A stretch of DNA of 64,000 nucleotides, from the NCBI GenBank assembly GCA_903896545.1, contig CAITYF010000025.1:23944-87943 (forward strand), given 5' to 3'. The notes below the pieces were generated by a model. It was not told the origin of the DNA. It did not search any database and saw nothing but the letters and a program-made list of their open reading frames with translations. Numbering within the stretch: the stretch's first letter is position 1; the number at the start of each line of letters is the position of its first letter. Shown in pieces: positions 13,511-63,478 of the stretch. The position numbers and the translations under genes were made by a program. Source of the DNA: an uncultured Myxococcales bacterium (lineage in GTDB: Bacteria > Myxococcota_A > UBA9042).

Positions 13511-13550
13511 CCAGTGAAGGCCTTTTGACCCACAGGAGAAAACCAGCGCG

Positions 13551-39500: not shown

Positions 39501-40832
39501 CACGATCTTGGTGCCGCCTTCGCTCGGACCGGCGTTGGGCGTGATGCTCGTGACGGTCAGGAGGTCGCTGTAGGTGTAGCCGCCGGTGGCGAGGTCGGTG
39601 CCCTTGGACGTCATCAACGTCACGTCCGTGGCGCCGACGCTGCTGCCTGCGGGCGCAAGTACCAGCGCGGTGTGCGCGACGGCGTCGACGCTGAGGATTT
39701 CGGCGAGCTTTTGGCCGAACAGGACTGTCGTGTCGCCTTTGGACAAGAGCCCGGTGGCGATGATGGCGACCTTGTTGCCGCCCGCGAGCGGACCTGCAGG
39801 CGGTGCGATGGACAGGATCTTGGTCGCCGCTTGGCCTTTGTCGTCGCTGTAGACGTAGCCGCCGACAAGCGCATTGCTGCCGTACGCCGTGGTCGCAGTG
39901 ACATCAGCCTTTCCAGCGGCGCCCGGTGGCGTCGTGATGCGCGCTTGCGTGCTGCCTTTTACTTCCAGCACCGTGGCTTTGCCCGTGCCGATCTGCAGGT
40001 CCACGTCCTTGCTGAAGCCGGTGCCGTAGACGATCGCCGAGGTCCCGCCCGCTGTCGGTCCGGAAGCCGGCGCGACGGAGCTGACGGTGGGCGCGGCGGT
40101 GTAGAAGAAGCCCTTCTTCAACAACCCCGTGCCGCGCTCGTTGAGCACATGCACCGGAACTGAGCCAAAAGTGCCCGGCGGCGTGATCGCCGTCACCGTG
40201 TCGTCCGCCACCACTTGCACGTTCAGCGCCTGCTTGCCGCCGACCAGGACTTGGCAATTGCCCGTGAAGCCGGTGCCGTGAACCGTGATCGCCGTGCCGC
40301 CCGCAGTCGGACCTTCGGGCGGGTCGACCTTGGTGACCAGCACATCGTTGAAGTACAGAAACGCCTTAGCCAGCGTCGCTGATTGCGGTACGTCGCCCGG
40401 CAGCACCACCGTGATGTCGACAAGACCCGTCTCGTGCGGTGGCGTGATGATCTGGATCGTCGCGTCGTCAAAGACGTACACCGACGACGCTTCCAGCGGC
40501 GTGCTGCCAAAAAGGATCTGCGCGCCGTCCGTGAATCCGTGCCCGTAGAGGTAGATCGTTTCGCTGCCGCTGGCCTTGCCTTCCGCCGGCTCGACCGAAT
40601 CGATCGCGAAACCTTTGACCGTGGGCGTGCTTGCGTCGCTGGTGCTGACAGCGTCGGTGCCGACGATCGCGTCGATGGCGCTGACGTCCCCCGTGTTGGC
40701 GTCTTCTGTTGCTGTGGTGCTGTCACCGCTGGTCTTTTGCCCGCTGCACGCCGCACCGGCGAGTGCCAGAACTGCGAGCAAGGCCAGAACGTTGGATCTT
40801 TTCAAGCGAAACGAAAGGTGCTGCGGATTCAT
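36597..40832 (-). CDS. IPT/TIG-domain and propeller mosaic lipoprotein
   Basis: A 1411-residue lipoprotein with lipobox GAAC (Cys29), Ser at +2, and an acidic Asp/Thr spacer. Six tandem IPT/TIG immunoglobulin-like domains occupy roughly residues 65-600, each with the P-x-x-G-x-x-x-G-G-T...V-x-G-x-G-F signature and ending in T-P-P-G. A carboxypeptidase-regulatory-like domain follows (ITVLDASNNAPIADAFAML). Then there is a Cys-rich patch (CNSCSADSQCGANFACVEIG). The C-terminal 450 residues include propeller repeats such as IYAVGAQGSLWHWDGGGW. CAGGAG precedes the ATG at 40832. It looks like a large adhesin-like surface protein. Confidence 0.87.
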   Translation of the reverse strand: MNPQHLSFRLKRSNVLALLAVLALAGAACSGQKTSGDSTTATEDANTGDVSAIDAIVGTDAVSTSDASTPTVKGFAIDSVEPAEGKASGSETIYLYGHGFTDGAQILFGSTPLEASSVYVFDDATIQIITPPHETGLVDITVVLPGDVPQSATLAKAFLYFNDVLVTKVDPPEGPTAGGTAITVHGTGFTGNCQVLVGGKQALNVQVVADDTVTAITPPGTFGSVPVHVLNERGTGLLKKGFFYTAAPTVSSVAPASGPTAGGTSAIVYGTGFSKDVDLQIGTGKATVLEVKGSTQARITTPPGAAGKADVTATTAYGSNALVGGYVYSDDKGQAATKILSIAPPAGPLAGGNKVAIIATGLLSKGDTTVLFGQKLAEILSVDAVAHTALVLAPAGSSVGATDVTLMTSKGTDLATGGYTYSDLLTVTSITPNAGPSEGGTKIVLTGSGFSKGSVNVKIGALAASAVAVVSDSEIQAITPPGQPGYADVTVLNDTSAVTLTAGYTYTGGKLALYVVYPPMGAQAGGTLVHVYGQGFDASTGVTFAGNPATHFTFIDPGHVTVKTPPGKVGSVDVSVTVKDASATLHNGYAYFNPMSGNGGTWGSGVDGAVNITVLDASNNAPIADAFAMLWTDPTTPYQGYTNSDGQITFSGDDLSGKQMVSASKTGYDASSVVLFDAQNVTVHLHPTSPPSPGDPPPGKIPPTISGHVIGVDKYVFVPNGNCNQYSGSGPGATCNSCSADSQCGANFACVEIGPDGDGNTNGKRCVADCSQGQGCPAQFKCAGIGTAGFRCIPAAGEVVAFCEHTKDGLFSQDNNPPEGAGFIADPQKAYAYKIDVAPGEQAVICFGGYKTFGAVLQADDPNAMVAFTPTVMGIKRHVMVQPEEQVTGVDVKLDIPLGTSASVRLDNPPTWGAPASTIVNYVQPQLVLGSDGVLRWPTRAYKFDFESNADLLTLTNLPSSFSGDLADASLTIETFLFDINEPTQLPRSINIKDNVRALADDRMIRRLVGGDFESVETGVKKNIYGLWGTSTSNIYAVGAQGSLWHWDGGGWTQQATVAKADWRGVFGVSAQSIFAVGLAGTAAVFDGLSWKVAPVAGNQNLTGVFAAQGTKGVVAFASSQSGIYQYDATNGWQKNGLYSNYLAIHGADATHMWAVGMTGALAFWDGNSWQNQTSGTSIALRDVWAASPNLVYAVGEKGIILKYDGKTWKPMNSGVQSTLSSVWGNGADDVWAVGARGVVLHYNGKSWQKVPGQALDKLLDAVWTTPEGDLFALGEQELLITPLLYPPLAVTPSPDGILVGNKLKWNVDTSYPEPHFNWISIGEPNPMAPGDPSKDTPVWNIVQKGSVSEVELPDFPSIQGSPGITKGKQLRLTIIRGYKEGFDIDAYTETDLNAYHWHAWAEHMFFFTAQ

Positions 40833-40914
40833 CGCTACTCCTGGTGACCGCACGGCAACTGCTCAGGCAGCGGACGCGTTGTTCGGGACGGCAGACGGGG
40901 CGAACCTGAACGGC

Positions 40915-43104
40915 TCACTGCCCCGGCTGCTTGACGTACTTCAGATCCTTCAGGTCCAGACCGGCGGGGTAGCCATAGGACACGTACTGGTCAAAACCGT
41001 AGACGTCTACGGCGACGCGGGACTCGGTGAGCTTGCCATCGGTGCCCAGCACAGGCAGGCCCAGAATCGTGTGCGGACCAGCGTTGACCGCAAACCGCGC
41101 ACCCTTGTAGTTCTTGGAAACATTGAAGAACTGATCCGGAGGAATCGGCTGGCCGTCGAATGTGACGACCGTGTCATCCGCGCACGAATTCGCCGGCGCG
41201 CCTTCGCCGCACTCGCTGTCTGCCGTGCAGGTCTTGCCCTTGTTCGGCGTCGTGATGCCGCACACGCGGTGGATGGGCGCGGCCACAGAAACGTAGTTGA
41301 AGCTGTACTTGTCCGGCGTCAGGAACACGTACTCCGAGCGCCACTGCGCCGACGGAATCGCCAGCAAAAACGCGGGATCACCCGTGCCAGCGTCGTCCGG
41401 CTGCGCGCCTGGATCCGGCGCGTCCTGACTCGACATGAAGTGCCCCACGAGCACCGGCGCCGGCGTCTTGTCCTCGTGGCGCGAGCTGATCTCAAAACTG
41501 TCGACGGTTTCAAACTCGAACCACTCGCCCTTGTTCAGCACCGGCACGCTGATCGCCTTGCCTTTGGGATCCTTGGGCGGCGGTACCAAATTGACGATCG
41601 TGCCGTTGGTAGCGGCCAAGATCCGCCATGAATCTCGTTCCTTGCCGCGCGGGAAGAGCTTGACGGCCACATAGTGGTTGTCCCACACCGGCACGGGGAA
41701 CATCTGCATTTCCAGATGGTCCGCGCAGCAGATAATGAACCCGCTGCAGTCGTCGTTGCTCGCGCATTGCGTCTTGCCGTCCCACACGCAGTGGCCGCAC
41801 TTCTGCCCGGCGTCGAGATCGCCTGCTTTGCACTTGCTGACGTCGCAGTGGTTCGTGTTGGGCACGTTGGCGGCCTCGCTGCCGGCAAAAACCGCGATTT
41901 TCTTGTCAGCAAGCACCACGGTGCCGGTCAAATCGCTGCCGACCATGTTGGTCTCGATGTTCAGCGTGCCCCACTGCGTCAGCGTAAACGACGCCGATTC
42001 GCCGCTCTTGTACGACTTGATCGTGCCGTCCTGGCTGGCCAACGTCAGTAGGGGCCACGTGCTGCCGCTGGCGTCGTTGTCCGGCGAGGCGAACGTCACG
42101 GTCACGTTGGTCTGCCCGCCCTGAGTCGCGACGATCGTGATGAAGCTCCGCAGGATCGAAAACGTCTCTTCTCGCGTCATGGCGATGTAGTACGTGCCGA
42201 GGAGCTCTTCGGGCAGCAGGTTCGTCGCGTCGTTGGAGTACACGCCGACGTTTTCCAGCGGGTTGAACTGGTACGCTGCGATCGGCGCCGAGGACGTCAC
42301 GCGCCACGCTTGGAACGACGACGACGTCGCGTCGATGTTGCGCGGCGGCAAGAGGAACGTGCGCAGTTCGCCTGGGCCAAGCGGCGACAGATCCAAGGGA
42401 TTATTCTGCGAGTCCAGCGTCTGCTTCTGTTCCTGCCCGTCCTCAAAGTAGCCGATGCTGATGTCCGCGGTCAGCTTGTCGGACGGATTTGAAACGACGA
42501 TCGCGTACTGCGCGTTGGACGCGTCAAAGTAGCTGCGCGCGCCGCCGGGGACAAACGCGTTGTCGAGGTCGGTCGCCCAGAACGCGCAGCCCACGTAGCT
42601 GTTGGCCTTGACGTTGATGTCGCACGCCTTTTGGCACAGCCCGCCCGGCGCGCATTGCTTGCCGGCCGCGGCGTCGCACTGTTCGTCCGTGGTCCAGTGG
42701 CCGGTGTCATCGCAACGTTCGACAACGGTGGAGTCAGCGGGGGCGCAGCGCTTGGCCAAGCCCGGCACGCATTCGCTACAGCGGCCATTTTCAAAGCATT
42801 TCGTTGGGTCGCCGCCGGCGTTGGTGCACAGGACGGTCTCGATCGCCGTGCCGGCGTCATTGCAGCGCGTCACGTAGTCGTCGGTTGCACACGACGTCGC
42901 GGTACCGGGCAAGCAAATCTGCCCAGCGCCCAATTCCAGCCCCACGTCGCCCTCGGCTACGTCCGCCGCGACTGCGTCGTCGTCGGTCTTGGCGGCGGGT
43001 GAGCTGCAGGCACCGAGCGCCGTGAGGGCCAGCACGGCCAACGCCACGCGCTGCAACAGGCTGATCGATGGAGACAAAAACGAATTCACGGGCGGTATCC
43101 GCAT
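40915..43104 (-). CDS. IgGFc-binding-type lipoprotein
   Basis: A 729-residue lipoprotein with lipobox LGAC (Cys33), Ser at +2, and an acidic spacer. A Cys-rich N-terminal region (about residues 50-150, with CLPGTATSCATDDYVTRCND and SECVPGLAKRCAPAD) is of the kind common in myxobacterial surface proteins. The rest matches the IgGFc-binding N-terminal domain: SYVGCAFWATDLDN, QYAIVVSNPSDKLTADISI, AYQFNPLENVGVYSNDATNLLP and SEYVFLTPDKY. In animals this domain occurs in FcGBP. In bacteria it is a predicted cell-surface adhesion module. It is the first gene of the five-lipoprotein run, divergent from rpsP across 294 bp. Confidence 0.87.
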   Translation of the reverse strand: MRIPPVNSFLSPSISLLQRVALAVLALTALGACSSPAAKTDDDAVAADVAEGDVGLELGAGQICLPGTATSCATDDYVTRCNDAGTAIETVLCTNAGGDPTKCFENGRCSECVPGLAKRCAPADSTVVERCDDTGHWTTDEQCDAAAGKQCAPGGLCQKACDINVKANSYVGCAFWATDLDNAFVPGGARSYFDASNAQYAIVVSNPSDKLTADISIGYFEDGQEQKQTLDSQNNPLDLSPLGPGELRTFLLPPRNIDATSSSFQAWRVTSSAPIAAYQFNPLENVGVYSNDATNLLPEELLGTYYIAMTREETFSILRSFITIVATQGGQTNVTVTFASPDNDASGSTWPLLTLASQDGTIKSYKSGESASFTLTQWGTLNIETNMVGSDLTGTVVLADKKIAVFAGSEAANVPNTNHCDVSKCKAGDLDAGQKCGHCVWDGKTQCASNDDCSGFIICCADHLEMQMFPVPVWDNHYVAVKLFPRGKERDSWRILAATNGTIVNLVPPPKDPKGKAISVPVLNKGEWFEFETVDSFEISSRHEDKTPAPVLVGHFMSSQDAPDPGAQPDDAGTGDPAFLLAIPSAQWRSEYVFLTPDKYSFNYVSVAAPIHRVCGITTPNKGKTCTADSECGEGAPANSCADDTVVTFDGQPIPPDQFFNVSKNYKGARFAVNAGPHTILGLPVLGTDGKLTESRVAVDVYGFDQYVSYGYPAGLDLKDLKYVKQPGQ

Positions 43105-43321
43105 GGACAGTTTACCTCGCCGGTTGAGAACCATCGGCGCAATCGCTCAGCGTAGCGGATCGCGGGTACAAGCGGCAAGTGAACTCAGCGTGAACGGCGA
43201 CCGGAACTGTGGCAATTCTCACAGGACTTGCGGCGTTTCTGGACGATGGTCTAGCGCGTCTGTCGTCGGTCGAAAACGCGCGCTCATCCGAAGGCGCGCC
43301 GGCGTGGCGTGACAGATCAGA

Positions 43322-43708: not shown

Positions 43709-43942
43709 ATGCGCGAATTTCTGCATTATCTCGCCAGCGTTCTGGTCGATCACCCGGAAGACGTGCGTGTGGACGAAGAAACAGGCGACCAAGGTGTTGT
43801 CCTGCGTCTATTTGTACGTCGGGAAGATATCGGCAAGGTGATTGGCAAGCAGGGTCGCACGGCGCGTGCCATCCGCAACCTCGTCCACGCTGCAGCGGCG
43901 TTGCGCCAGCAGCGGGTGACGGTCCACTTCGTTGACTCGTGA
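43709..43942 (+). CDS. khpA: KH-domain RNA-binding protein KhpA
   Basis: A 77-residue single KH-domain protein. The GxxG loop is in GKVIGKQGRTARAIRNLV (about residues 41-58). KhpA partners KhpB/Jag in RNA binding and cell-wall related regulation in other bacteria. The ATG at 43709 has GGAG upstream and gives the usual short family length. It directly follows rpsP, and its stop overlaps the GTG start of the next gene by 4 bp. Confidence 0.92.
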   Translation: MREFLHYLASVLVDHPEDVRVDEETGDQGVVLRLFVRREDIGKVIGKQGRTARAIRNLVHAAAALRQQRVTVHFVDS

Positions 43943-44964
43943 CTGACGGCGTCCGACCGCGCGATTCTGCGGCCGTGATGGGCGCCGCTTCGCGACCGTT
44001 GGCGGACGTTCTCCTGACCATTTCTGCTTCGCCGCACACGCTGGTCTTCCTGACCGTGGCGTGGGCTGCAGTGTTTCTGCTGGCGACCCAGGTCCCGCAA
44101 CTCCACGCAGCGGGCATGATGACGGACGGCCTGCCGCGATCCGAAGTGTTGGCGCTCCACGCGCTGGGGCTGGATCGTCTGGCGTGGTCGCTCGGCGTCT
44201 GGCTGCTTGCGGGTTTGACGACGTTCGCTGCTCTGGCGCCGCTGGTTTCTGGCCGCGCGCGCTGGCAGCCGGCCGAGGTGCTGCGCGGGGTGGCGCTCGT
44301 GTCGCTTCTGGGTGTGTGGCTCTGGCAGACCGCAGGGTCGCCGCCGGTCACGCTGGATATTCAGGTGGGTGATCCGGTCGGGCAAGTGCAGTCGGCGATG
44401 CACGATGGCGGCGGTCCTGCGCCGGCCCCCGGGCGTTGGCAGGCGACGTGCCGCGCTCACGCCGGATCGGAAGTGCTCGATTGCGCCATCGCAGGTGCGG
44501 GTTTGCGGCACCAGATCGGTTTGGCGCCCGGTGTGCCCGCGGAGAGTCAAGGCGTGCAGTTTACTTGGCTGTCGAGTTCCGTCGCGCCATTGCCCAAACA
44601 GATGACGCTGAGTTGGCGGGCGACGCAGGACGCGCGCCAGGTCTTTGCGCTTGCACTGCGGGACGGCGAGTCGACCTCGGCACCGCTTCTGGCTGCGACC
44701 TTCCAGCCGCAGGTGATCAAAGAGGCCGGGCCATTGCTCCTCGTGCGGGGAACCGGATCCAAGCCGACGGTGCGCTTGCTGGCATCGCCTGACGTGTTGC
44801 CTCACGGCCGTCCGTCCGCGCAGGTGGTTGGTGAACCGCTGATTCAGGTTCAGGTAGCGCCAGCGCACCCACAATGGCCGCTTGCGCTCGTGTTTCTCGC
44901 CTTGGCAAGCACCTTTGTCCTCGCGTTGCGGCCGAAGCACGCCCCATCCGCGGAGGTCGGCTAG
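43939..44964 (+). CDS. Membrane protein with ResB-like topology
   Basis: A 341-residue membrane protein, start GTG at 43939 overlapping khpA. Three N-terminal membrane segments (about residues 34-51, 78-100 and 112-131) are followed by a soluble region of about 175 residues with two Cys, and one C-terminal segment near 311-330. This 3+1 topology, with FLTVAWAAVFLLATQVPQ and ALGLDRLAWSLGVWLLAGL, resembles ResB/Ccs1 of System II cytochrome c maturation, which handles haem and apocytochrome on the outer face of the membrane. The similarity is by layout and short stretches only. A role in maturing the multihaem protein at 48.5 kb would be attractive but is unproven. Confidence 0.5.
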   Translation: MTDGVRPRDSAAVMGAASRPLADVLLTISASPHTLVFLTVAWAAVFLLATQVPQLHAAGMMTDGLPRSEVLALHALGLDRLAWSLGVWLLAGLTTFAALAPLVSGRARWQPAEVLRGVALVSLLGVWLWQTAGSPPVTLDIQVGDPVGQVQSAMHDGGGPAPAPGRWQATCRAHAGSEVLDCAIAGAGLRHQIGLAPGVPAESQGVQFTWLSSSVAPLPKQMTLSWRATQDARQVFALALRDGESTSAPLLAATFQPQVIKEAGPLLLVRGTGSKPTVRLLASPDVLPHGRPSAQVVGEPLIQVQVAPAHPQWPLALVFLALASTFVLALRPKHAPSAEVG

Positions 44965-44966
44965 CC

Positions 44967-46073
44967 ATGCTGCTCCTTCCCTCGCTCCATCTCGGTCCCC
45001 TCTCGATCGCGCCGCTCGCGCTCCTGCCGATCGTTCCAGTCATCGTCTTGATTCTGAAGCCGAGTCGGATCGTGTCGCTACTCGCGCTGGTCACGTCGGT
45101 TCCGTTGTTGCTCGCACCTGCCGGTGCAGGGCTCGTCGGTGGCGTCGCCGTGTGTGCGCTCCTCCTGCGGGCGCTGTTGGCCATCGAGCAACAAACGCAG
45201 TTGGCGAAGCTCGCGCTCCTCTGGCTTCCGGTTGCGCTCCTGCAGGCGGGCGGGGTGGCGTTCGTGTGGCCCGTCGTCCTGATCGGTGCGCTGGCGGCGC
45301 TGACCGCGAGCGTTGCGACAGCTGCGGCGCTGGAGCACGATCTCCGATGGCCCCTTGCACTGCTGCTCGCGCTCCTACCGTTTGCGCCGTTTGGCGATGC
45401 GCTGCTTCAACCCGCGCAGGTTTCCGCCGCGCTGCCGTTTTCACAGGTGGCTGCCCGCTGGCAGTTCACGGGACCTGGCGAGATCGACGTCGCGGCTCTT
45501 TCAGGCATTTGGTTTCTCGCGGATCGGCTGGCGCGCGGTGCGCTTTTCCTCGCCCTTCTATTGGGTTGGGCGGCGGAGCGACGTCCAGTCTGGTTTTTGG
45601 ATCGCGCCGCGTTCCTGTTGCTTCTCTTCGCTGGCGGCCTACTGGCTGGTCAGACCCTTGCCGCCGCGAGCGCGCCGGTCCACGCGCCCGGTTTTCCGCT
45701 TGCCCCCGCAACTGCGCTGGATTGGAACGCCGCCGGCGTGGCGTTGGCGTTGGCGCGGATCGCGTCTTTGGCTGTCTTGTTGCGTGCCGGCCCCCGATCC
45801 GTCGCGACGTCGCTCGACGGATGGGCGGGACTTTCAGCGAGTTTGCTTCTGGCAGCTCTCACCTACTTCGCACCTGAGGTGGTCGGGCCAACTTGGCTGG
45901 TCGATCCGCTTGCGCTTGCACTTCTGGCCTTGGTGTTGGCCGCCACCGTTCGCGTCCGTGCGACTGCGGGCTGGCCACGCGTTGCTGCAGGTCTCGTTCA
46001 GCTCGCGGCGGCCGCTGCGCTTGCGGGCGGATCGTGGGCAGGCTGGGCGACGACCAGCCTGCTTCAGCCCTGA
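44967..46073 (+). CDS. Polytopic membrane protein, unknown
   Basis: A 368-residue, very hydrophobic protein with about eleven predicted membrane segments and few charged residues. ATG at 44967 with GGAGG at 44952-44956, 2 bp after the previous stop. No CcsA-type Trp-rich haem motif and no conserved transporter signature is visible. A leucine/alanine-rich composition makes homology reading by eye unsafe. It is co-oriented with the ResB-like gene, so the two probably form a membrane complex. Its last 10 bases overlap the convergent comF gene. Confidence 0.65.
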   Translation: MLLLPSLHLGPLSIAPLALLPIVPVIVLILKPSRIVSLLALVTSVPLLLAPAGAGLVGGVAVCALLLRALLAIEQQTQLAKLALLWLPVALLQAGGVAFVWPVVLIGALAALTASVATAAALEHDLRWPLALLLALLPFAPFGDALLQPAQVSAALPFSQVAARWQFTGPGEIDVAALSGIWFLADRLARGALFLALLLGWAAERRPVWFLDRAAFLLLLFAGGLLAGQTLAAASAPVHAPGFPLAPATALDWNAAGVALALARIASLAVLLRAGPRSVATSLDGWAGLSASLLLAALTYFAPEVVGPTWLVDPLALALLALVLAATVRVRATAGWPRVAAGLVQLAAAAALAGGSWAGWATTSLLQP

Positions 46074-48146: not shown

Positions 48147-48546
48147 GATAGCCTCAAGCCGCCAACGGCACTGGAGGTCGGAGCGTAAGGGCGAGGCGAC
48201 GTGGGCGCAAGGCCTTACCCAGCATCCCGGCAATACCACAGGTGGAATACTACGGCCGCCTTTGGGTGCGCTGCGGCGCATGCGGCGCTCCCGCTGGACG
48301 ATGGCCAGGGCCTGATCGCCGAATGCCGCACCTGAGACGGCCGAAAAGGCCGGAGGAATCGCAAGAAATCCCGGTCGACCCAGCAGACTTGATCGAGATC
48401 AAGTCGTGGCTTGATTCGTCCCAAATGGGACCAGTTCTTACCCTTGTTTGTGAAACGTCTTAGGTAGACAAGCATGTGTGCGCGGCCCATGGAATGGGCT
48501 GTGTAGATCTATGGCGCCCGCGACGGCTGCTCAACAGGGGGAAAGA
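48147..48546. other. 400-bp intergenic region upstream of the multihaem gene
   Basis: This divergent gap separates map (minus) from the multihaem lipoprotein (plus). It contains the FNR-type dyad at 48386-48405, a short TCCCA/TGGGA dyad near 48419-48430, and a GCCCAT/ATGGGC hairpin at 48485-48499. A start-to-stop frame at 48242-48463 lacks support as a gene. The ribosome site is GGGGGAAAG just before ATG 48547. I could not place a convincing -10 element. Confidence 0.7.
48386..48405 (+). promoter_or_regulatory. FNR/CRP-family operator, perfect consensus
   Basis: GACTTGATCGAGATCAAGTC is a 20-bp perfect palindrome. Its core TTGAT-CGAG-ATCAA (48389-48402) equals the E. coli FNR consensus TTGAT-N4-ATCAA. 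The centre is about 151 bp before the ATG of the multihaem gene, so a 5' leader of about 90-110 bases would put it near -41.5 or -61.5. FNR-family proteins activate genes at low oxygen. Confidence 0.65.
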
Positions 48547-51500
48547 ATGACGGACTTCAGCAAGCGAACGAGCACTTGGCTTGTATTCGTGCTTGGAACG
48601 GTCCTTTTGGCATCGTGCGGCGACGACAAGGCGGCAACGCCGGGAAGCGAAGCCGACGTTGTGGAAGACATCACGAATGTGCAGTTGGACGGTGATGGCA
48701 ATACGGATGCCTCTCCCGACAGCAAGATAGACGCGAAGAACGACATCGCGAACCCTGAAGACGTCAAGGACGTGGCGCAAGATGCCGACGTCGCAGCGGA
48801 TGCCGATGTGGACGACGCCGAAGATACTTCGGATGTCTCCTTGGACATCGATATTTTCGTGAATCCAGACGTTCAGCCCGATGTGGAACCGGACGTGCAG
48901 CCAGACGTTCAGCCGGACGTTCCGCCTGATGTCCCCGAAGACGTGCAAGTGGGCACCGATGCAGTCATTACCCCTGATGACATCGTCGATGCGACCGACT
49001 TGATCGACGTCACGTCGGACGTTCCCGTGGAACAAGACGTGCCGGTTGAACAGGATGTGGTTCTGCTGGACGCCCAAGACGACGTCGCTGTCGACGTGCA
49101 AGTGGAAGACATCCAGGGCACGGACATCGCAGTGCAGGACATCGGAACGGACGCGGTCGCGGACATTGAGCAGCCCGACACCGGGCCGGAAGACACCAAG
49201 ATCAGCCAGTGGTTGCCCGTTTGCTTCGGTTGCCACGGCGATGCGCTGCGTGACGATCCCGCGCCGCCGAAGGACCTGAAGGGCCACACCGACACGACGT
49301 ATGCCGGCGTCGGCGCGCACCAGTCGCACTTGAAGACGGCGGATTGGCGCCATGACATTACCTGCCAGGAATGCCACCCAGTGCCGGATCCGTATGCTTC
49401 CACGCACTTCAACGGCAAAGTCGACTTCCAGTGGGGCTCCATTGCCAAGCAGGGAACCTTCGATACGACGTCTCTGCAGTGTTCGGGCTCCTACTGCCAT
49501 GGCGGCACGTTGGCGGTTGGCGATGTGGCTGGCACGACGTCCAATAAAACGCCGACGTGGAACGTGGTCGACGGTTCGCAGGAAGCTTGCGGCACGTCGT
49601 GCCACACGGTCCCGCCGGGCGGCAAGCACCCGCTGGACACCAAGTGCGAGAATTGCCACGGCGAAGTGATCGCGGGCTATGACCCGACGACCAACAAGGC
49701 GACTTGGGCGAATCCGCAGTTGCACGTTGATGGCCTCCTGGAAGTGGGCAACCTGAACTGCACCTCGTGCCACGGTGACACGGCGACCAACAACCCGGCG
49801 CCGCCCAAGGGCACGAAGGGTGAGACGCTGACCAGCCAGGCGGCGGTCGGCGCGCACACGGCGCACTTGGTCGGCGGCGATTGGCACCGTCAGGTGGTGT
49901 GCACGGACTGCCACGCGCTGCCGGGTTCGACCGCGCACGCCAACGGCGTCTTCGACTTCGCGTTCAGCGCGGTGGCCTCGGCGAGCGGCGCGAACCCGAC
50001 GTTTGACGCCGGCACCGTGACTTGCTCGAACACGTACTGCCACGGCGTCACGACTGGCAACCCCAAGACGGGTGGCGTGGTCAAGCACGAGCCGATTTGG
50101 AATCAGGTTGACGGCACGTTTGATTCTTGCGGTTCGAGCTGCCACACGAATCCGCCGGCCGAGCCGCACCCGCAGTCGACCAACTGCACACAGTGCCACG
50201 GCGACGTGATCGCGTCGTTTGACGCGGTGAATAACACCGCGACGTGGGTCAACTCTGCGCTGCACGTAAACGGCAAGATCGAAGTGATTGGCTTGACGTG
50301 CACCAGCTGCCACGGCGATGCGCTGGCCAACCAGCCGGCTCCGCCGAAGGGTACGAAGGGCGAGACGCTGACGACGCAAGCGGCGGTCGGCGCGCACACG
50401 AAGCACCTCACGCAGAGCGATTGGCACCGTCAGGGCCAGTGCGAAGATTGCCACACGGTTCCGCAGTCGACCTCGCACACCAACGGCACGGTCGACTTCA
50501 ACTTTGGCACGGTTTCTTCGGCCGACGGCGCGCAGCCGACGTTCAGCGCGGAAAACCTGACGTGCGCTACGGCGTACTGCCATGGCACGACGCTGAAGGC
50601 GGGCGCGATCACGGGCGGTACGCTGAAGCAGACGCCGGTGTGGACGCAGTCCGACGGTACGTTCGAAGCATGCGGCGCGAGCTGCCACACCAACCCGCCG
50701 GGCGGCAAACACCCGAACAACACCAAGTGCGAGCAGTGCCACACGGAAGTGATCAGCGGCTACGACCCGAACACGATGGTCGCGACGTTCGCCAAGCCGG
50801 AACTGCACGTGAACGGCAACGTGGAAGTCGTCGGTCTGACCTGCACGACCTGCCACGGTGATGCCGCGACGAACAATCCGGCGCCGCCAAAGGGCACGAA
50901 GGGCGAGACCCTGACGAGCCAGGCCGCGGTCGGCGCGCACGCCCAGCACTTGGGCGCGAGCGACTGGCACCGCGAAGGCGCGTGCACGGACTGCCACACG
51001 ACGCCCGCTTCGGTTGGTCACTCGAACGGCACGATCGACTTCACCTGGGGCGATGTCGCGACGACGGGCAGCAGCACGCCGACGTTTGACGCCTCGACGG
51101 TGACTTGCAACGCGGTGTACTGCCACGGCAACACGCTGCCTGCGGCGAAGTCCGGCGGCACGACGAAGAAGTCGCCGGTCTGGACGACGGTCGACGGCAC
51201 GTTTGATTCCTGTGGCGCGAGCTGCCACACGAATCCGCCGGGCGGCAACCACCCGCAGAGCGACAAGTGCGCAATGTGCCACGCGCCAGTCATCTCGGCG
51301 TTTGACCCGGCGACGCAGAAGGCGACTTGGGCGAGCCCCGGTCTGCACATCGACGGTTCGGTGGAAATGTCCGCCTTGACCTGCACGAGCTGCCACGGTG
51401 ACGCGGCGACCAACAATCCGGCGCCGCCGAAGGGCGTGCTCGGCGAGACGCTGACGACGGAAGCGGCGGTTGGCGCGCACGCGCAGCACTTGGGCGCGAG

Positions 51501-54500
51501 CTCGTGGCACCGCGATGGTCAGTGCACGGACTGCCACGTTGTGCCGACCAGCACGACGCACACGAATGGCATTCTCGAAATCGCTTGGGGTACGGTCGCG
51601 ACGGCAGCCAACAGCACGCCGGCGTTTGACGTGGGCACGCTGACGTGCAACGCGGTGTACTGCCATGGCAATACGCTGCCGGCCGCGGTGCAGGGCGGTT
51701 CGACCAAGAAGTCCCCGGTGTGGACGACGGTCAACGGCACGTTCGACTCCTGCGGCGCGAGCTGCCACACGAACCCGCCTGGCGGCTCGCACCCGAGCAG
51801 CACGGCGTGCGAAATCTGCCACACGGAAGTCATCTCGAACTACAACCCGGCGACCAAGCAGGCCACGTGGGCCAGCCCGTCGCTGCACGTCGACGGCATT
51901 GTCGAAGTGAAGACGCTGACTTGCACGACCTGCCACGGTGATGCCGTCAAGAACGATCCGGCACCGCCCACGGGCACGCACGGTGAGAAGCTGACGACGT
52001 CCGCGGCTGTTGGCGCGCACCAGAACCACTTGGGCGCGAGCGACTGGCACCGTCAGGGTCAGTGCACGGACTGCCACACGGTTCCGGCGTCTGTGACGCA
52101 CAGCAATGGCACGACGGACCTGAACTTTGGTGGTCCGAGCACGGTGGGCGGCGCGACGCCGGCGTTTGACGTCGACACCGTGACCTGCAACAGCGTGTAC
52201 TGCCACGGCGTGACGCTCTTTGGCCCGAAGCCGGGTGCGACGCTGAAGCAGCAGCCGATTTGGACTCAGGTGGACGGTACCTACGACGCGTGCGGCGCGA
52301 GCTGCCACTCCACGCCGCCGGGCGCCCCGCACGTGCAAAACACCGCGTGCGAACAGTGCCACGGTGAAGTGATTCAGTCGTTCACGCCTGGCGTGGGTGG
52401 TGCGCCGCCGACGGTGGTGTGGAAGGATGCGAGCCGCCACGTGAACGGCATCATCGACGCGCCCGCGCTGACCTGCACGGCGTGCCACGGCGATGCCGCG
52501 ACGAACAACCCGGCGCCGCCGAAGGGCACGAAGGGCGAGACGCTGACGACGCAACCGGCCGTGGGCGCTCACACGTCGCACTTGACCGGCAGCAACTGGC
52601 ACCGTGACGTTCAGTGCGCGGATTGCCACAAGGTCCCGGCGGAGACCCTGCACTCCAACGGCGTCGATGACGTCGACTTTGGCGCCATCGCGTTGACGGG
52701 CGGCACGCTGCCGACGTTTGACCTGAGCACCGTGACCTGCAACGCGGTGTACTGCCACGGTGCGACGTTGCCGGCGGCGAACGCGGGCGGCACGACCAAG
52801 AAGTCGCCGGTGTGGAACACGGTCAACGGCACCTACAATGCGTGCGGCGCGAGCTGCCACACCAACCCGCCTGGCGGAACGCACCCGCAGAACAGCACCA
52901 AGTGCCAGATGTGCCACACGGACGTGATCCAGAGCTACGATGCCGCGGCCAAGACTGCGGTGTGGGTTGACCGCTCCAAGCACATCAACGGTGTTGTCGA
53001 AGTGAAGACGCTGACGTGCACGACTTGCCACGGTGACGCGGTCAAGAACGATCCGTCGCCGCCGCTGGGTACGCAGGGTGAAACGTTGACGAGCCAAGCG
53101 GCCGTCGGCGCGCACCAGCAGCACTTGGCGACGAGCGCGTGGCACCGCGACGGTCAGTGCGTGGACTGCCACACGGTTCCGGGTAACACGAACCACAGCA
53201 ACGGCATTCTGGACCTCGTTTGGGGTACGGTGGCCAAGGCGGCAGGCTCGAGCCCGACGTTTGACGCTGCGACAGTGACCTGCAACGCGGTGTACTGCCA
53301 CGGCACGACGCTGGCTGCGGCCAACGCCGGTGGTACGACGGCCAAGGTGCCGGTGTGGACGACGGTCAATGGCACGTTTGATTCTTGCGGCGCGAGCTGC
53401 CACACGAATCCGCCGGGCGGATCGCACCCGCAGAACACGACGTGCGCGACTTGCCACCCGGCGGTCATCCAGAGCTACGATCCGACGACGAAGACCGCTG
53501 TGTGGAAGGACAAGTCCTTGCACGTCAACGGCACGTTGGAAGTGAAGACGCTGACCTGCACGACGTGCCACGGCGATGCGGGCACGAACAACCCGGCGCC
53601 GCCGCTCGGCACGAAGGGTGAGACGCTGACGACGCAGGCCGCGGTCGGCGCGCACACGCAGCACCTGAACACCAGTAACTGGCACCGCCAGATGCAGTGC
53701 GACGATTGCCACGTGGTGCCGACGTCCACGAGCCACAGCAACGGCGTGTTCGACTTCGGTTGGGCTGGCCCGTCGGCAGTGAACGGCGCGACCCCGGCGT
53801 TTGACACCAACACGGTCACCTGCAACGGCGTGTACTGCCACGGCAACACGCTGCCGTTCGGTGCCAAGGCTGGCGCGACGCTGAAGATGTCGCCGGTGTG
53901 GACGACGGTCGACGGGACGTTTGACTCGTGCGGTCAGAGCTGCCACACGACGCCTCCTGGCGGCGCGCACCCGCAGAACAACGCCTGCGAAACGTGCCAC
54001 GGTGCGGTGATTTCGTCCTTCACGCCGGGCGTGGGCAATGCGGCTCCGACGGTTGTGTGGAACGACTTCACGCGGCACGTCGACGGCATCATCGATGCGC
54101 CGGCCCTGAGTTGCACGGGTTGCCACGGCACCGTTGCAACCAATGACCCGGCGCCGCCGCGCGGTACCAAGAATGAAACGCTGACCAGCCAGCCCGCGGT
54201 GGGCGCGCACCAGCAGCACTTGGCGAGCAGCAACTGGCACCGCGACGTGCAGTGCGCGGATTGCCACATCGTTCCGGCCTCGTCGCTTCACTCCAATGGT
54301 GTGGATGACGTCGACTTCGGCGCCATCGCGGCCACGGGCGGCACGACGCCGGCCTTTGACCTTGCGACGGTGACGTGCAACGCGGTGTACTGCCATGGCA
54401 CGACACTGCCGGCAGCCAACGCTGGCGGCACGACGAAGAAGACGCCGGTGTGGACGACGGTCGATGGCTCGTTCGATTCGTGCGGCGCCAGTTGCCACAC

Positions 54501-57225
54501 CAATCCGCCTGGTGGAACGCACCCGCAGAATACGGCGTGCGCGACTTGCCACAACGACGTGATTCAGAGCTACGACCCGGCGACCAAGACGGCCGTCTGG
54601 ACGGCTCGCGCCCTGCACATCAACGGTCAGGTCGAAGTGAAGACGCTGAGTTGCACGTCTTGTCACGGCAATGCGGCGACCAACGATCCGTCGCCGCCGC
54701 TGGGAACAAAGGGTGAGACGCTGACGAGTCAGGCTGCGGTCGGCGCGCACCAGAACCACTTGCAGGCCAGCAGCTGGCACCGCGATGGCCAGTGCACGGA
54801 CTGCCACACGGTTCCGGCGAGCACGTCGCACAGCAACGGCACGGTGGACTTCACGTTCGGCGCAGTGGCGACGGCAGGCGGTTCGACGCCGGCCTTCGAC
54901 ACCGGCACGGTGACGTGCAACGCGGTGTACTGCCACGGCAACACGCTGCCAGCCGCCAACGCGGGTGGCACGACGGCGAAGACGCCGATCTGGAACAAGG
55001 TCGACGGCACGTACGACTCGTGCGGCGCGAGCTGCCACACCAACCCGCCGGGCGGCGGCCACACGGTGGCAACCGACTGCGCGAACTGCCACGGCGACGT
55101 GATCGCCAGCTACGATCCTGCGACAAAGACGGCCGTGTGGGCGAACAAGGCGCTCCACGTGGACGGCACGCTGCAGGTGAAGACGCTGTCGTGCACCTCT
55201 TGCCACGGCGATGCGGGCACGAATAACCCGGCGCCGCCGAAGGGCACGAAGGGCGAGACGCTGACGAGTCAGGCCGCGGTGGGCGCGCACGCGCAGCACT
55301 TGGGCACGACAAATTGGCACCGTCAGGTGGAATGCGCGGATTGCCACGTGGTGCCGGCTTCGACGTCGCACAGCAATGGCGTGTTCGACTTTGCCTGGGG
55401 CGGCCCGGCCGCGGTCAACGGCGCGACGCCGAGCTTTGACACCAGCACGGTGACGTGCAACGCGGTGTACTGCCACGGCAACACGCTGCCGTTCGGTGCG
55501 GGCCCGACGGGTACGCTGAAGATGTCGCCGGTGTGGACCACGGTTGATGGCACCTACGACTCGTGCGGCCAGAGCTGCCACACGACGCCGCCGGGGGACC
55601 AGCACCCGCAGAACACCAACTGTCAGGATTGCCACGGTGCGGTGATCAGCTCGTTCACGCCTGGCGTGGGCAACGCGCCGCCGACGGTCGTGTGGAATGA
55701 CTTCACGCGGCACGTGGACGGCATCATCGACGCGCCGGCGCTGACCTGCACGGCTTGCCACGGTACGACTGCAACGAATGACCCTGCGCCGCCGAAGGGC
55801 ACGAAGGGTGAGACGTTGACGTCACAGGCCGCGGTGGGCGCGCACCAGCAGCACTTGGGCACGAGCACCTGGCACCGCGATGGTCAGTGCACGGACTGCC
55901 ACACGGTTCCGGCGGCGCCGCTGCATGCGAATGGCGTGGACGACATCAACTTTGGCACGGTGGCTTCGGCTGACGGCGCGACGCCGGCGTTCAACGCCAG
56001 CAACGTGACGTGCAACGCGGTTTACTGCCACGGTTCGACGCTCGTTGGCGCCAATGACAGCGGCACGATCAAGCAGACTCCGGTGTGGACGACCGTGAAC
56101 GGCTCGTTCGACACGTGCGGCGCGGCTTGCCACAGCATCCCGGTGGGTGGCTCGCACGTGGCGCACACGGACTGCAGCATCTGCCACAGCGCAGTGGTGA
56201 CGACGTTCGACGCGGCCACGAAGGCGACGACGTGGAAGGATCGCAGCTTGCACATCGACGGCGTGGTCGAGAGCAACAAGTACCACACCTTGGCCGGCTG
56301 GACGACGCCGAACTACGGTGCGAACCACCACGGTAGCAACTACTTCATCCGCAATCAGATGCGCGATGAACACAACGTCGCCTGCACGACCTGCCACGGC
56401 GCCGACTACAACGGCGGCACCGTGAACGTGAGCTGCAACAACGCGACGATCGCGTGCCACGGCCAGAATTCTCCGGCCAATGGCACGGGCGGCGACTGGA
56501 AGGCCTGCAACTTCTGCCACGGTAGCGCGACGGCGAACAACCCGCCGCACGGCGTGGCCAACGAGCAAGCGGCGGCGACGAACACGTTGGGCGTTGGCAA
56601 GCACGCGGTGCACATGGCCACGACGAGCACCACGCACGCGCCGTTTACCTGCAACCAGTGCCACGCGATTCCGGGTGCGGGCGACATCGCGCACATCGCG
56701 CAGTACGTGTACTCGGCGGATCTGGCGACTGCGGGTCACCACGGTGACGTGGCGGTGCCTGGCTTGGCGGTGGGTCCGGTGGGTACGCCGACAACCGCGA
56801 TGGTGTGGAACGTCGCGGCCACCAACGGCACGACGCCGTTCACGGGTCGCGGTACGTGCTTGGGCAACTGCCACTCGAACGGCCGCACCGCTACGGGCAC
56901 GACGCCGAATCCGGTGATCACGCCGTATTGGGCTGGTGTGGGTCCGACGGCGTGGACGGCCGGTCTCTGCACGATGTGCCACGCGGGTACGCCGGCGACG
57001 GGTCAGCACTCACGGCACATGAGCAGTGGCAACAACGTTGGCTGCGTGCCGTGCCACAACACCGCGACGGATCCGAAGCACATGAACGGTCTGCGCGATG
57101 TGAACGCGACCATCGTCGCGCCCAGCGGTTGGGGTACGGTCGTCACGACCCGCGCCGCCGGTACAGGTCGCGTGAGCTGCACGAATACGTGCCACGGTAC
57201 CGGCCACAATCCGCGTAGCTGGTAA
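48547..57225 (+). CDS. Giant multihaem c-type cytochrome lipoprotein
   Basis: A 2892-residue lipoprotein with lipobox LASC (Cys24), Gly at +2. Residues about 25-225 form an Asp/Val/Pro-rich spacer with DVQPDV units. From residue 226 there are 13 tandem repeats of 179-185 residues. Each has Cys motifs in the order CX2CH (CTSCHGD), CX2CH (CTDCHTVP), CX4CH (CNAVYCHG), CX3CH (CGASCHTNPP) and CX2CH (CEQCHGE). A C-terminal region of about 315 residues adds five CX2CH, two CX3CH and one CX6CH. The CX4CH-then-CXXCH style matches the domain described in large Geobacter cytochromes. Conserved His in GAHxxHL and SNG-flanking HxNG could be distal haem ligands. It likely conducts electrons at or outside the outer membrane; the partner is unknown. 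The ATG has GGGGGAAAG upstream. Confidence 0.93.
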   Translation: MTDFSKRTSTWLVFVLGTVLLASCGDDKAATPGSEADVVEDITNVQLDGDGNTDASPDSKIDAKNDIANPEDVKDVAQDADVAADADVDDAEDTSDVSLDIDIFVNPDVQPDVEPDVQPDVQPDVPPDVPEDVQVGTDAVITPDDIVDATDLIDVTSDVPVEQDVPVEQDVVLLDAQDDVAVDVQVEDIQGTDIAVQDIGTDAVADIEQPDTGPEDTKISQWLPVCFGCHGDALRDDPAPPKDLKGHTDTTYAGVGAHQSHLKTADWRHDITCQECHPVPDPYASTHFNGKVDFQWGSIAKQGTFDTTSLQCSGSYCHGGTLAVGDVAGTTSNKTPTWNVVDGSQEACGTSCHTVPPGGKHPLDTKCENCHGEVIAGYDPTTNKATWANPQLHVDGLLEVGNLNCTSCHGDTATNNPAPPKGTKGETLTSQAAVGAHTAHLVGGDWHRQVVCTDCHALPGSTAHANGVFDFAFSAVASASGANPTFDAGTVTCSNTYCHGVTTGNPKTGGVVKHEPIWNQVDGTFDSCGSSCHTNPPAEPHPQSTNCTQCHGDVIASFDAVNNTATWVNSALHVNGKIEVIGLTCTSCHGDALANQPAPPKGTKGETLTTQAAVGAHTKHLTQSDWHRQGQCEDCHTVPQSTSHTNGTVDFNFGTVSSADGAQPTFSAENLTCATAYCHGTTLKAGAITGGTLKQTPVWTQSDGTFEACGASCHTNPPGGKHPNNTKCEQCHTEVISGYDPNTMVATFAKPELHVNGNVEVVGLTCTTCHGDAATNNPAPPKGTKGETLTSQAAVGAHAQHLGASDWHREGACTDCHTTPASVGHSNGTIDFTWGDVATTGSSTPTFDASTVTCNAVYCHGNTLPAAKSGGTTKKSPVWTTVDGTFDSCGASCHTNPPGGNHPQSDKCAMCHAPVISAFDPATQKATWASPGLHIDGSVEMSALTCTSCHGDAATNNPAPPKGVLGETLTTEAAVGAHAQHLGASSWHRDGQCTDCHVVPTSTTHTNGILEIAWGTVATAANSTPAFDVGTLTCNAVYCHGNTLPAAVQGGSTKKSPVWTTVNGTFDSCGASCHTNPPGGSHPSSTACEICHTEVISNYNPATKQATWASPSLHVDGIVEVKTLTCTTCHGDAVKNDPAPPTGTHGEKLTTSAAVGAHQNHLGASDWHRQGQCTDCHTVPASVTHSNGTTDLNFGGPSTVGGATPAFDVDTVTCNSVYCHGVTLFGPKPGATLKQQPIWTQVDGTYDACGASCHSTPPGAPHVQNTACEQCHGEVIQSFTPGVGGAPPTVVWKDASRHVNGIIDAPALTCTACHGDAATNNPAPPKGTKGETLTTQPAVGAHTSHLTGSNWHRDVQCADCHKVPAETLHSNGVDDVDFGAIALTGGTLPTFDLSTVTCNAVYCHGATLPAANAGGTTKKSPVWNTVNGTYNACGASCHTNPPGGTHPQNSTKCQMCHTDVIQSYDAAAKTAVWVDRSKHINGVVEVKTLTCTTCHGDAVKNDPSPPLGTQGETLTSQAAVGAHQQHLATSAWHRDGQCVDCHTVPGNTNHSNGILDLVWGTVAKAAGSSPTFDAATVTCNAVYCHGTTLAAANAGGTTAKVPVWTTVNGTFDSCGASCHTNPPGGSHPQNTTCATCHPAVIQSYDPTTKTAVWKDKSLHVNGTLEVKTLTCTTCHGDAGTNNPAPPLGTKGETLTTQAAVGAHTQHLNTSNWHRQMQCDDCHVVPTSTSHSNGVFDFGWAGPSAVNGATPAFDTNTVTCNGVYCHGNTLPFGAKAGATLKMSPVWTTVDGTFDSCGQSCHTTPPGGAHPQNNACETCHGAVISSFTPGVGNAAPTVVWNDFTRHVDGIIDAPALSCTGCHGTVATNDPAPPRGTKNETLTSQPAVGAHQQHLASSNWHRDVQCADCHIVPASSLHSNGVDDVDFGAIAATGGTTPAFDLATVTCNAVYCHGTTLPAANAGGTTKKTPVWTTVDGSFDSCGASCHTNPPGGTHPQNTACATCHNDVIQSYDPATKTAVWTARALHINGQVEVKTLSCTSCHGNAATNDPSPPLGTKGETLTSQAAVGAHQNHLQASSWHRDGQCTDCHTVPASTSHSNGTVDFTFGAVATAGGSTPAFDTGTVTCNAVYCHGNTLPAANAGGTTAKTPIWNKVDGTYDSCGASCHTNPPGGGHTVATDCANCHGDVIASYDPATKTAVWANKALHVDGTLQVKTLSCTSCHGDAGTNNPAPPKGTKGETLTSQAAVGAHAQHLGTTNWHRQVECADCHVVPASTSHSNGVFDFAWGGPAAVNGATPSFDTSTVTCNAVYCHGNTLPFGAGPTGTLKMSPVWTTVDGTYDSCGQSCHTTPPGDQHPQNTNCQDCHGAVISSFTPGVGNAPPTVVWNDFTRHVDGIIDAPALTCTACHGTTATNDPAPPKGTKGETLTSQAAVGAHQQHLGTSTWHRDGQCTDCHTVPAAPLHANGVDDINFGTVASADGATPAFNASNVTCNAVYCHGSTLVGANDSGTIKQTPVWTTVNGSFDTCGAACHSIPVGGSHVAHTDCSICHSAVVTTFDAATKATTWKDRSLHIDGVVESNKYHTLAGWTTPNYGANHHGSNYFIRNQMRDEHNVACTTCHGADYNGGTVNVSCNNATIACHGQNSPANGTGGDWKACNFCHGSATANNPPHGVANEQAAATNTLGVGKHAVHMATTSTTHAPFTCNQCHAIPGAGDIAHIAQYVYSADLATAGHHGDVAVPGLAVGPVGTPTTAMVWNVAATNGTTPFTGRGTCLGNCHSNGRTATGTTPNPVITPYWAGVGPTAWTAGLCTMCHAGTPATGQHSRHMSSGNNVGCVPCHNTATDPKHMNGLRDVNATIVAPSGWGTVVTTRAAGTGRVSCTNTCHGTGHNPRSW
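49222..56271 (+). repeat. 13 tandem repeats of about 540 bp in the multihaem gene
   Basis: Repeat starts, taken at the first CXXCH Cys codon, are 49222, 49759, 50299, 50842, 51382, 51922, 52474, 53017, 53557, 54112, 54652, 55192 and 55747. Units 6, 9 and 12 are 12-15 bp longer because of a shared FTPGVGxAPPTVVW insertion. Units 7, 10 and 13 share a GVDD(V/I)xFG stretch. This gives a higher-order period of three units (1635-1638 bp). Confidence 0.9.
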
Positions 57226-61912: not shown

Positions 61913-63478
61913 TTACGGCGCAATTGGCAGAACGGTCTCAGGCAGCAGCGCGTCAAAGGTCAGCTCGTTGGTGACCTCGTGCCACACGGTATCGCCCACC
62001 GTCAGCGTGTACAGCTCGGAATCCTTGAGCGACCGGCTATTGGGCGAGCCATCCAGTTTGGGCGCGATCGGCGCACCCGACTGATCCACCGTCGCCGTCG
62101 CTGAGATCACGAACACCTGCCGCAGCGGCGACATCGTGAAGGAGAAGATCTTCCGGTTATTCGTAGTGTTATCGCGCGGGTTCTTCGTCAGGTTCAGCCA
62201 ATCGCCCTCGCCGATCGTGTCGCCGATCTTCGCGACGGGCAGGGCCATGATGTCGGTAAAATCCTTGTCCGTCGGCGCATCCGAACAGTGGCTGTAGCCC
62301 AAATGGTAGACGTACTTGCCGTCAGCAGAGAAGTACGGCGTGCCAACGATCTGGACGTGTTGCCAGTTGTTCTTCTTGATGACGGAACAAGCCTGCTGCA
62401 GGTAGTTGCCCGCCGGCACTTCGACCAAATTGCTAAAGGTCGGCGCGACTTCGGACCCGATCACGTATTTGCGGGCGCGTAGAAAGCGGTCGACGATGGT
62501 GAAAAGCACGATGGTCTTGCCGTCCGGCCCGATCGCGACCTTGTCTGTATCGTGGTACTGCGAGCCCGTGCCACTGCACTCCGACCCATTGGGGTGCTCG
62601 CAAATATAGTCCAATTTCGACAGGTTGCCGTCGCGCCAAGCGTAAACCTTCACCGAACGGATGGTCGGCGTGAGGATGACGATCGTCGTCCCGTCTTCGC
62701 TGACCTGAAAATGACCGCCGTAGGTCGTATCCTTCACGACGTCAGCGTCCTCGTCGGGCGCCATCTTCGGAATCAGCACCACATCGGCGACGCCGGTCGG
62801 CGACGGACTCGCCAAAAAGACTTTGTGAATGCTGTATTGGCAGACTGTGTTGCCGTTCTGACACGTGTCCCGCGTCGAATAGAACAGGTCGCCGCCGCCG
62901 AAGTGGATGTCGACGACGTTCTTGAGCTTGCCGAACTTATCGCCGACGAAGACCGCCAACTGCTTGTTCATCGCGCCGAGTTGGTACTCGTACCCGTCCC
63001 CGGTCGCCGGACCGGTCGCAATGGCGACGTGGCTCAGATCGCGGCTGACCAAGCAGCCGTAGGCGCAGCTCAAACCGGTTGCCTGAAAAGAGGATTTCGT
63101 GAACTCGAAGGCCGCCTTGTTGCCGTCGAGTGGGCTCAGGCCGATGCCAAAGGTCGAGATGCCGCTCGGGTCGGCGAGCTTGACGTTTTGCCAGGCTGAA
63201 AGCACCAAATCGCTGTACGCATCAACACCTGGGGTCGCAACGCGCTCGTGGCGCTGGTAGGTGATCCAGAAGTCCTCGGTCACCTTCACCGGGCCGCCGA
63301 TGTCCGCGCCGGCGGTCGAATCGGCCCCGCCATCCGCGCCAACGACGTCATTGCCGCCCGTAACGTCGTCGCCCGCCGCGGAAACGTCGTTGTCAGTCGC
63401 AGCCTTGGAGCTGCACCCCCCAAGGAGGGCGGCGATCACGATCGTGCGCTTCAGCCGCGCGGAAAAGAAAATCTGCAT
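61913..63478 (-). CDS. Secreted lipoprotein, possible propeller
   Basis: A 521-residue lipoprotein with lipobox LGGC (Cys22), Ser at +2, and an Asp/Gly-rich spacer (residues about 28-65, e.g. GADGGADSTAGADIGG). The mature region has recurrent strands such as HFQVSEDGTTIVILTPT, VAIGPDGKTIVLFTI and YFSADGKYVYHLGYSH, which read like PD40/WD40-type beta-propeller blades. Several Cys pairs are present. Downstream converges with rlmH across 9 bp. GAGGA precedes the ATG. No enzymatic motif seen. Confidence 0.75.
   Translation of the reverse strand: MQIFFSARLKRTIVIAALLGGCSSKAATDNDVSAAGDDVTGGNDVVGADGGADSTAGADIGGPVKVTEDFWITYQRHERVATPGVDAYSDLVLSAWQNVKLADPSGISTFGIGLSPLDGNKAAFEFTKSSFQATGLSCAYGCLVSRDLSHVAIATGPATGDGYEYQLGAMNKQLAVFVGDKFGKLKNVVDIHFGGGDLFYSTRDTCQNGNTVCQYSIHKVFLASPSPTGVADVVLIPKMAPDEDADVVKDTTYGGHFQVSEDGTTIVILTPTIRSVKVYAWRDGNLSKLDYICEHPNGSECSGTGSQYHDTDKVAIGPDGKTIVLFTIVDRFLRARKYVIGSEVAPTFSNLVEVPAGNYLQQACSVIKKNNWQHVQIVGTPYFSADGKYVYHLGYSHCSDAPTDKDFTDIMALPVAKIGDTIGEGDWLNLTKNPRDNTTNNRKIFSFTMSPLRQVFVISATATVDQSGAPIAPKLDGSPNSRSLKDSELYTLTVGDTVWHEVTNELTFDALLPETVLPIAP

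Follow-up and report, generated by a model that had tools for sequence, protein, structure and literature searches.

A giant cytochrome of the Myxococcota with 73 haem-binding motifs in a strict cassette-and-cap order, a candidate membrane-tethered haem wire

Background

Large c-type cytochromes described to date include a protein of 113 haems, the highest number recorded in 2020 (PMC7082337), a protein with 112 motifs for which capacitor-like storage has been suggested (PMC11495043), and, with 24 and 49 motifs, cytochromes described as dense (PMC7399161). Cytochrome nanowires have been characterized by their geometry and by the ligation of each haem by two His residues (PMC9473688, PMC12954529). 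PMC5539420, PMC2825233 and PMC12133095 were not decisive for the questions treated here. Here we describe a gene from an uncultured Myxococcales bacterium (GTDB lineage Bacteria; Myxococcota_A; UBA9042) that lies in a stretch of 64,000 nucleotides, hereafter the window (assembly GCA_903896545.1, contig CAITYF010000025.1, positions 23,944 to 87,943). It encodes a protein with 73 haem-binding-type motifs. An earlier note made from the DNA letters alone (the original prediction) had recognized a haem-rich lipoprotein here but missed its strict architecture of 13 × 5 + 8 motifs. It is this architecture, and not the haem count, that is novel, and no such cassette-plus-cap rule was found in the literature searched. 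The best reading of the protein, to which we assign a probability of about one half, is that of a covalent haem wire, tethered to the membrane, in which the number of cassettes would set the length.

Gene and cassette architecture

The frame that opens with an ATG at 48547 runs to 57225 on the forward strand with zero internal stops, and a purine-rich AGGGGGA is found directly 5' of the ATG. Its product carries 44 CX2CH, 15 CX3CH and 13 CX4CH motifs and a single CX6CH, exactly as originally counted. All 73 CH dipeptides have their upstream Cys, and 146 of the 147 Cys residues fall within motifs, the remaining one (C24) being part of the lipobox LLAS-C. Shuffling the mature chain 500 times gave a mean of 1.4 CX2-4CH motifs and never more than 6, versus 72 observed. 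The motif spacings follow the order 2-2-4-3-2 thirteen times and then 2-6-2-2-3-2-2-3, which divides the chain into pentahaem cassettes of about 180 residues (CX2, CX2, CX4, CX3, CX2) and an octahaem C-terminal cap (CX2, CX6, CX2, CX2, CX3, CX2, CX2, CX3) whose first motif is at residue 2613. The features of the gene are as follows.

48536..48542, forward: likely ribosome-binding site AGGGGGA, as read from the sequence
48547..57225, forward: gene for the 73-motif cytochrome, 2892 residues, stop included; TIGR01904 match of 313 bits
48547..48615, forward: predicted lipoprotein signal peptide, residues 1-23, LLAS before Cys24
48616..48618, forward: lipobox Cys24, the sole Cys outside the haem motifs
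48619..49203, forward: acidic Asp/Val/Pro spacer, residues 25-219, from composition and comparison with relatives
49204..49740, forward: pentahaem cassette 1
49741..50280, forward: pentahaem cassette 2
50281..50823, forward: pentahaem cassette 3
50824..51363, forward: pentahaem cassette 4
51364..51903, forward: pentahaem cassette 5
51904..52455, forward: pentahaem cassette 6, with PTVVW insert
52456..52998, forward: pentahaem cassette 7, opens super-repeat 7-8-9
52999..53538, forward: pentahaem cassette 8
53539..54093, forward: pentahaem cassette 9, with PTVVW insert
54094..54633, forward: pentahaem cassette 10, opens super-repeat 10-11-12
54634..55173, forward: pentahaem cassette 11
55174..55728, forward: pentahaem cassette 12, with PTVVW insert
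55729..56262, forward: pentahaem cassette 13, with an arbitrary boundary 40 residues ahead of the first motif of the cap
56263..57222, forward: octahaem C-terminal cap and linker, from motif order

The start-to-start period of the cassettes is 179-185 residues in the window protein and exactly 177 at 11 of 11 cassette-to-cassette steps in its paralogue L032, a near-constancy that is expected for a rigid repeat. Pairwise identity among the 13 cassettes ranges from 41 to 84%, and cassettes 7-8-9 match cassettes 10-11-12 at 78, 73 and 84%, forming a super-repeat. The insert PTVVW occurs in cassettes 6, 9 and 12 of the window protein and of its relatives L031, L040, L041 and L042, only in cassettes 9 and 12 of P0004, in cassettes 6, 8 and 10 of P0006, in cassette 14 of L047 and in cassette 5 of P0013; it is absent from the remaining six proteins examined.

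The 73-motif frame is unlikely to be an accident of assembly, because the identical motif order recurs in L031, L040, L041, L042 and P0004 (L041 being approximately the same protein as P0001, and L042 containing P0002), because L040 and L041 share the gene neighbourhood, and because the ratio of non-synonymous to synonymous substitution rates (dN/dS, NG86) of the window gene against four relatives is 0.15-0.19. The window protein is real, intact and conserved, a giant cytochrome that belongs to a family already known. On the opposite strand, an antisense open frame of 2433 residues (window 48460-55761) probably arises from the codon usage of the repeats.

Family and distribution

The NCBIfam profile TIGR01904 (CxxxxCH/CxxCH domain c-type cytochrome) matches in 13 stretches with 313 bits at a cut-off of 27, and Cytochrome_C7, Cytochrom_c3_2 and PF09698 are the Pfam families above their cut-offs. 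The repeated motif pair of TIGR01904 is present, with each of the 13 CX4CH motifs preceding a CX3CH and not a CX2CH. A match to NTF2 (25.3 bits, cut-off 21) was taken as chance.

A database search restricted to proteins between 0.55 and 1.75 times as long as the query returned 117 homologues, 27 of them with at least 73 motifs and a maximum of 116. The earlier ranking of the window protein as one of the most haem-rich chains to be expected is not supported by these numbers, nor by the reported proteins of 113 haems (PMC7082337) and 112 motifs (PMC11495043). Two of the homologues, P0012 with 116 motifs and P0003 with 103, are at or near the 113 haems called a record in 2020 (PMC7082337). P0025, from Anaeromyxobacter sp. 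Fw109-5, is more distantly related (38% identity over 76%) and has 58 motifs.

By their titles, 68 related loci come from Myxococcales, Myxococcota, Sandaracinus-type and 'Deltaproteobacteria' metagenome bins and from Anaeromyxobacter strains, together with one Geobacter bin, two Desulfuromonadales-type bins, one Bacteroidetes bin and one Chlorobi bin. In a sample of the order, TIGR01904 matched 17 of 22 genomes (15 above cut-off) and none of 14 controls; in a sample of the phylum, the cassette profile matched 85 of 282 genomes. In a genome of the same genus (G006) the cassette matches, among those listed, are on short frames (348 and 458 residues, one at a contig end); the assembly may have split the giant gene there, or the gene may be missing.

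N-terminus

The lipobox and acidic spacer of the original prediction are both borne out. By the lipobox rule, residues 1-23 read as a signal peptide ending in LLAS before C24, and a signal peptide with a lipobox Cys near the N-terminus is what characterizes bacterial lipoproteins. The spacer (residues 25-219) is composed of, among others, 49 Asp, 11 Glu, 32 Val, 16 Pro and 5 Lys, with zero Arg, His and Cys. Among distinct 73-motif relatives its identity is 30-55%, as opposed to 69-86% for the cytochrome part, and the N-terminal starts are alike. The 73-motif protein is predicted to be a surface lipoprotein.

This N-terminus bears on the possibility that each chain is one very large subunit of an end-to-end polymer like those of OmcS, OmcE and OmcZ. 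Known cytochrome nanowires are polymers (PMC12954529), and a cap might bind to the first cassette of a following chain. Such a filament is nevertheless very unlikely, given a predicted lipid anchor at one end, an acidic stretch of some 195 residues at the N-terminus that would hold subunits apart, and the lack of a match to any solved nanowire by sequence or fold.

Predicted haem ligands and structure

Histidines outside the motifs are conserved to a degree that suggests how the haems are held. Conservation was scored in 126 of 133 two-cassette rows of both types (2-2-4-3-2 and the wider 2-2-4-2-2; 138 rows before the redundancy filter), all chosen by motif pattern; the seven left out, which came last in order and are all distant, are L084, L086, L091, L092, L093, L100 and L105. 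Non-motif His at positions 39, 42, 66, 143 and 176 is kept in 126, 126, 125, 126 and 126 of the 126 rows in the first cassette and in 126, 126, 126, 126 and 124 at the same positions of the second, and a sixth is kept in just 88 and 95. Since five near-invariant non-motif His residues accompany five haem sites, the simplest reading is that all five sites of a cassette, those of CX3CH and CX4CH type included, likely hold bis-His haems. In the alignment of the 73-motif proteins (eight rows, six distinct proteins), all 146 motif Cys and all 73 motif His are invariant, as are 93 of the 97 other His in the cytochrome part, versus 1156 of the 2357 other residues.

The same His residues speak to another role, that of a general-purpose surface reductase whose exposed haems would reduce metals, humics and shuttles on contact, with no defined current path. 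Family members occur in Anaeromyxobacter, which is known for metal reduction, and outer cytochromes of a loose, haem-rich kind are known. With a near-invariant His available to every cassette site, however, no coordination place would be left open there for catalysis, and we consider this role quite unlikely.

An AlphaFold2 model of cassettes 7-8 (126 rows) has a mean predicted local distance difference test score (pLDDT) of 89.1 and a predicted template modelling score (pTM) of 0.76. No credible solved relative was found with the cassette profile, with a longer profile or with Foldseek on the two-cassette model, Foldseek being weak in this case; the fold of the cassette is possibly new.

Motif number and length variation among relatives

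The subfamily, whose members have two or more 2-2-4-3-2 cassettes in succession, follows a simple numerical rule. Of 25 subfamily rows counted as complete, 24 consist of whole cassettes and an eight-motif cap and therefore have 5n+8 motifs, with n equal to 3, 4, 5, 6, 9, 11, 12, 13 (the window protein), 15 or 19, so that natural members span 23 to 103 motifs. The comparison omits, as partial, four rows of the subfamily and three of the other type, and the completeness of database-only (P) rows was assumed. Near-duplicates are included (P0001 and L041 with 2 differences, P0008 and L032 with 13); among distinct proteins the rule holds in about 22 of 23. The sole exception, L062, has 16 motifs and no cap. 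Minor departures are a cassette of L050 in which CX3CH replaces CX4CH and one altered cap spacing in L049.

In a tree of the last cassette plus cap (24 rows), sisters are separated by whole cassettes: P0003 has 103 motifs versus 63 in P0009, and P0004 has 73 versus 63 in P0006. The window protein forms a clade with L031, L040, L041 and L042, and every member has 73 motifs. A structural repeat of variable length would fit all of these traits: the near-fixed period, one ligand per site, the cap seen in 24 of 25 subfamily rows, and length differences of whole cassettes.

Variation of this kind could also be accommodated by an electron store, a surface or periplasmic capacitor for times without acceptor in which contact between cassettes would matter little. 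The very high haem number and the presence of several paralogues in one genome bin fit such a store, as does a cassette number ranging from 3 to 19 among relatives, and a capacitor-like role has been speculated on for proteins of up to 112 motifs (PMC11495043). A store would need neither a near-fixed cassette length, nor a cap conserved in 24 of 25 subfamily rows, nor a count of 13 cassettes kept in six distinct proteins, and storage as the main function appears somewhat unlikely to us.

In the wider family, members from Geobacter and Desulfuromonadales bins differ in cassette size and have a three-motif period instead; at L090, L103 and L107, which come from such bins, large cytochromes are adjacent to one another, many of them with a (2-2-4)n pattern. 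Another locus, L054 (79-11878), carries an array of related cytochromes in the form of four consecutive multihaem frames with 38, 15, 38 and 16 motifs.

Genomic neighbourhood and paralogues

The window gene is part of the order M24 peptidase, cytochrome, proA-type gene, rsfS, glycosidase, which is common to L040 and L041; the tested neighbour genes had no match in L042 or L031. Further out, and likewise common to L040 and L041 in the same order, genes for TIG-repeat and IgGFc-binding-type proteins, possible adhesins, occupy window 36597-43134 on the reverse strand. Between them and the cytochrome, window 43939-46073 contains two hydrophobic membrane-type forward frames with no credible family match and a very strong AT skew, -0.376 in 44001-46000. 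A lipoprotein-like reverse frame of 521 residues (61913-63478), 76-79% identical in L040 and L041, has sub-threshold matches alone, for example to a WD40-like repeat.

The original prediction saw no other cytochrome gene in the window. This stands for frames of at least 80 residues with at least two CXXCH motifs, but not for the window's edge, where positions 1-31 of the forward strand (from L035 17076), approximately 31 bases, are the end of an eight-motif cytochrome frame lying mostly outside. That frame, on the same contig, encodes 632 residues with Cytochrom_C and CBB3-type domains.

The genome bin (6.76 Mb, 94.75% complete) has TIGR01904 matches at five loci, with 73 motifs in the window protein, 73 on contig C133, 68 on C14 and 33 on C163, and 37 CH dipeptides on C202. 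Three of these proteins, with 73, 68 and 33 motifs, are close paralogues of the window protein, a set that depends on binning: L031 (C133, 15.8 kb) is 80% identical to the window protein, versus 82% for the copy of another species, and could be a binning stray. In the giant cytochrome of C202, 36 of the 37 CH are within CX2-6CH motifs. Its gene belongs to a cluster (L034, G000 C202:20001-40000, 5226-14435) that also encodes a 490-residue protein and a 12-motif cytochrome, with a four-motif cytochrome and an NrfD-type membrane protein encoded divergently. The 490-residue protein has a signal-peptide-like start, belongs to no known family and resembles a barrel by eye; its 23 relatives either lack a name or are called hypothetical. 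As judged from its gene content, the cluster could plausibly form a path from quinol to the outside, possibly a complete system of electron export. With this porin-cytochrome-like cluster and three close paralogues in the same bin, the earlier suggestion that the window protein may act alone is doubtful. Additional multihaem frames are present elsewhere in the bin, and PF01578, a family that includes haem-attachment proteins, is found at three places; it is a common family, also present in 9 of 14 control genomes.

Proposed mechanism

We propose that the thirteen five-motif cassettes and the eight-motif cap, placed behind a lipobox and an acidic spacer, would carry 73 bis-histidine haems, with haem at every site, CX3CH and CX4CH included. 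The N-terminus would be lipid-anchored and the acidic spacer flexible. Each cassette would form one compact domain, and adjoining cassettes would bring their haems close enough for electron hopping, which might let the chain conduct over its full length. The C202 cluster, or a porin-cytochrome conduit like it, could feed in the electrons, and the octahaem cap might be the outer, acceptor-facing end, the wire carrying electrons between the cell surface and outside acceptors or partners. With OmcZ-like spacing, a rise of 58.1 Å per eight-haem subunit (PMC9473688), 73 haems would extend for about 50 nm.

Several observations weigh against a conducting wire. AlphaFold2 gave a pLDDT of only 41.3 and a pTM of 0.22 for cassettes 10-13 plus the cap (24 rows), so the arrangement of many cassettes is not predicted. 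The rule of 5n+8 fits just 12 of 106 rows of the wider 2-2-4-2-2 type and fails in 94, which makes it a subfamily trait. Of ten frames tested around the gene, three have no Pfam match and the other seven match families other than porins or cytochromes; the adjoining porin and periplasmic cytochrome of a porin-cytochrome conduit were thus not found at this locus, in agreement with the original prediction, which saw no partner porin in the window. The physiological use of cytochrome wires is itself disputed (PMC11077965, PMC11021709). A more elaborate form of the proposal is offered tentatively: a covalent nanowire of five-haem cassettes of unsolved fold with an octahaem terminal, evolving in length by exact five-haem steps, and a set of surface wires of 73, 73, 68 and 33 motifs in one cell.

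Comparison with known systems

The closest systems are the TIGR01904/PF09698 cytochromes of Geobacter and Anaeromyxobacter, which belong to the same family and include named giant members in Anaeromyxobacter. From these the window subfamily differs in having CX3CH as the fourth cassette motif, an octahaem cap and a 5n+8 motif count. The giant cytochromes of Methanoperedenaceae (113 haems), Acidobacteriota (112 motifs) and Saprospiraceae are from other phyla, and no cassette rule appears in the parts of their descriptions available; it is by these descriptions, and not by sequence, that they are set apart here. MtrC and OmcA share with the window protein the design of an outer-surface multihaem lipoprotein, and TIGR03507 had no match to the window protein at E values up to 1. 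Porin-cytochrome conduits have a possible counterpart in the cluster elsewhere in the bin, but none among the ten frames beside the window gene. The cassette has a confident model but no solved relative was found, and one structure would be informative for all 85 genomes, among the 282 sampled in the phylum, in which the cassette profile has a match.

The nanowires OmcS, OmcE and OmcZ resemble the window protein in proposed function and in its predicted long chain of haems with two His each; none of them was among the PDB profile or Foldseek matches, with Foldseek weak here. They are polymers of 4 to 8-haem subunits, whereas the window protein has its length within one polypeptide. If the haem-wire reading is true, length, haem number and conduction would be separable, since nature has trimmed and extended these proteins by whole cassettes, and both wire length and haem number would be written in one gene, as opposed to being built up by the polymerization of small subunits.
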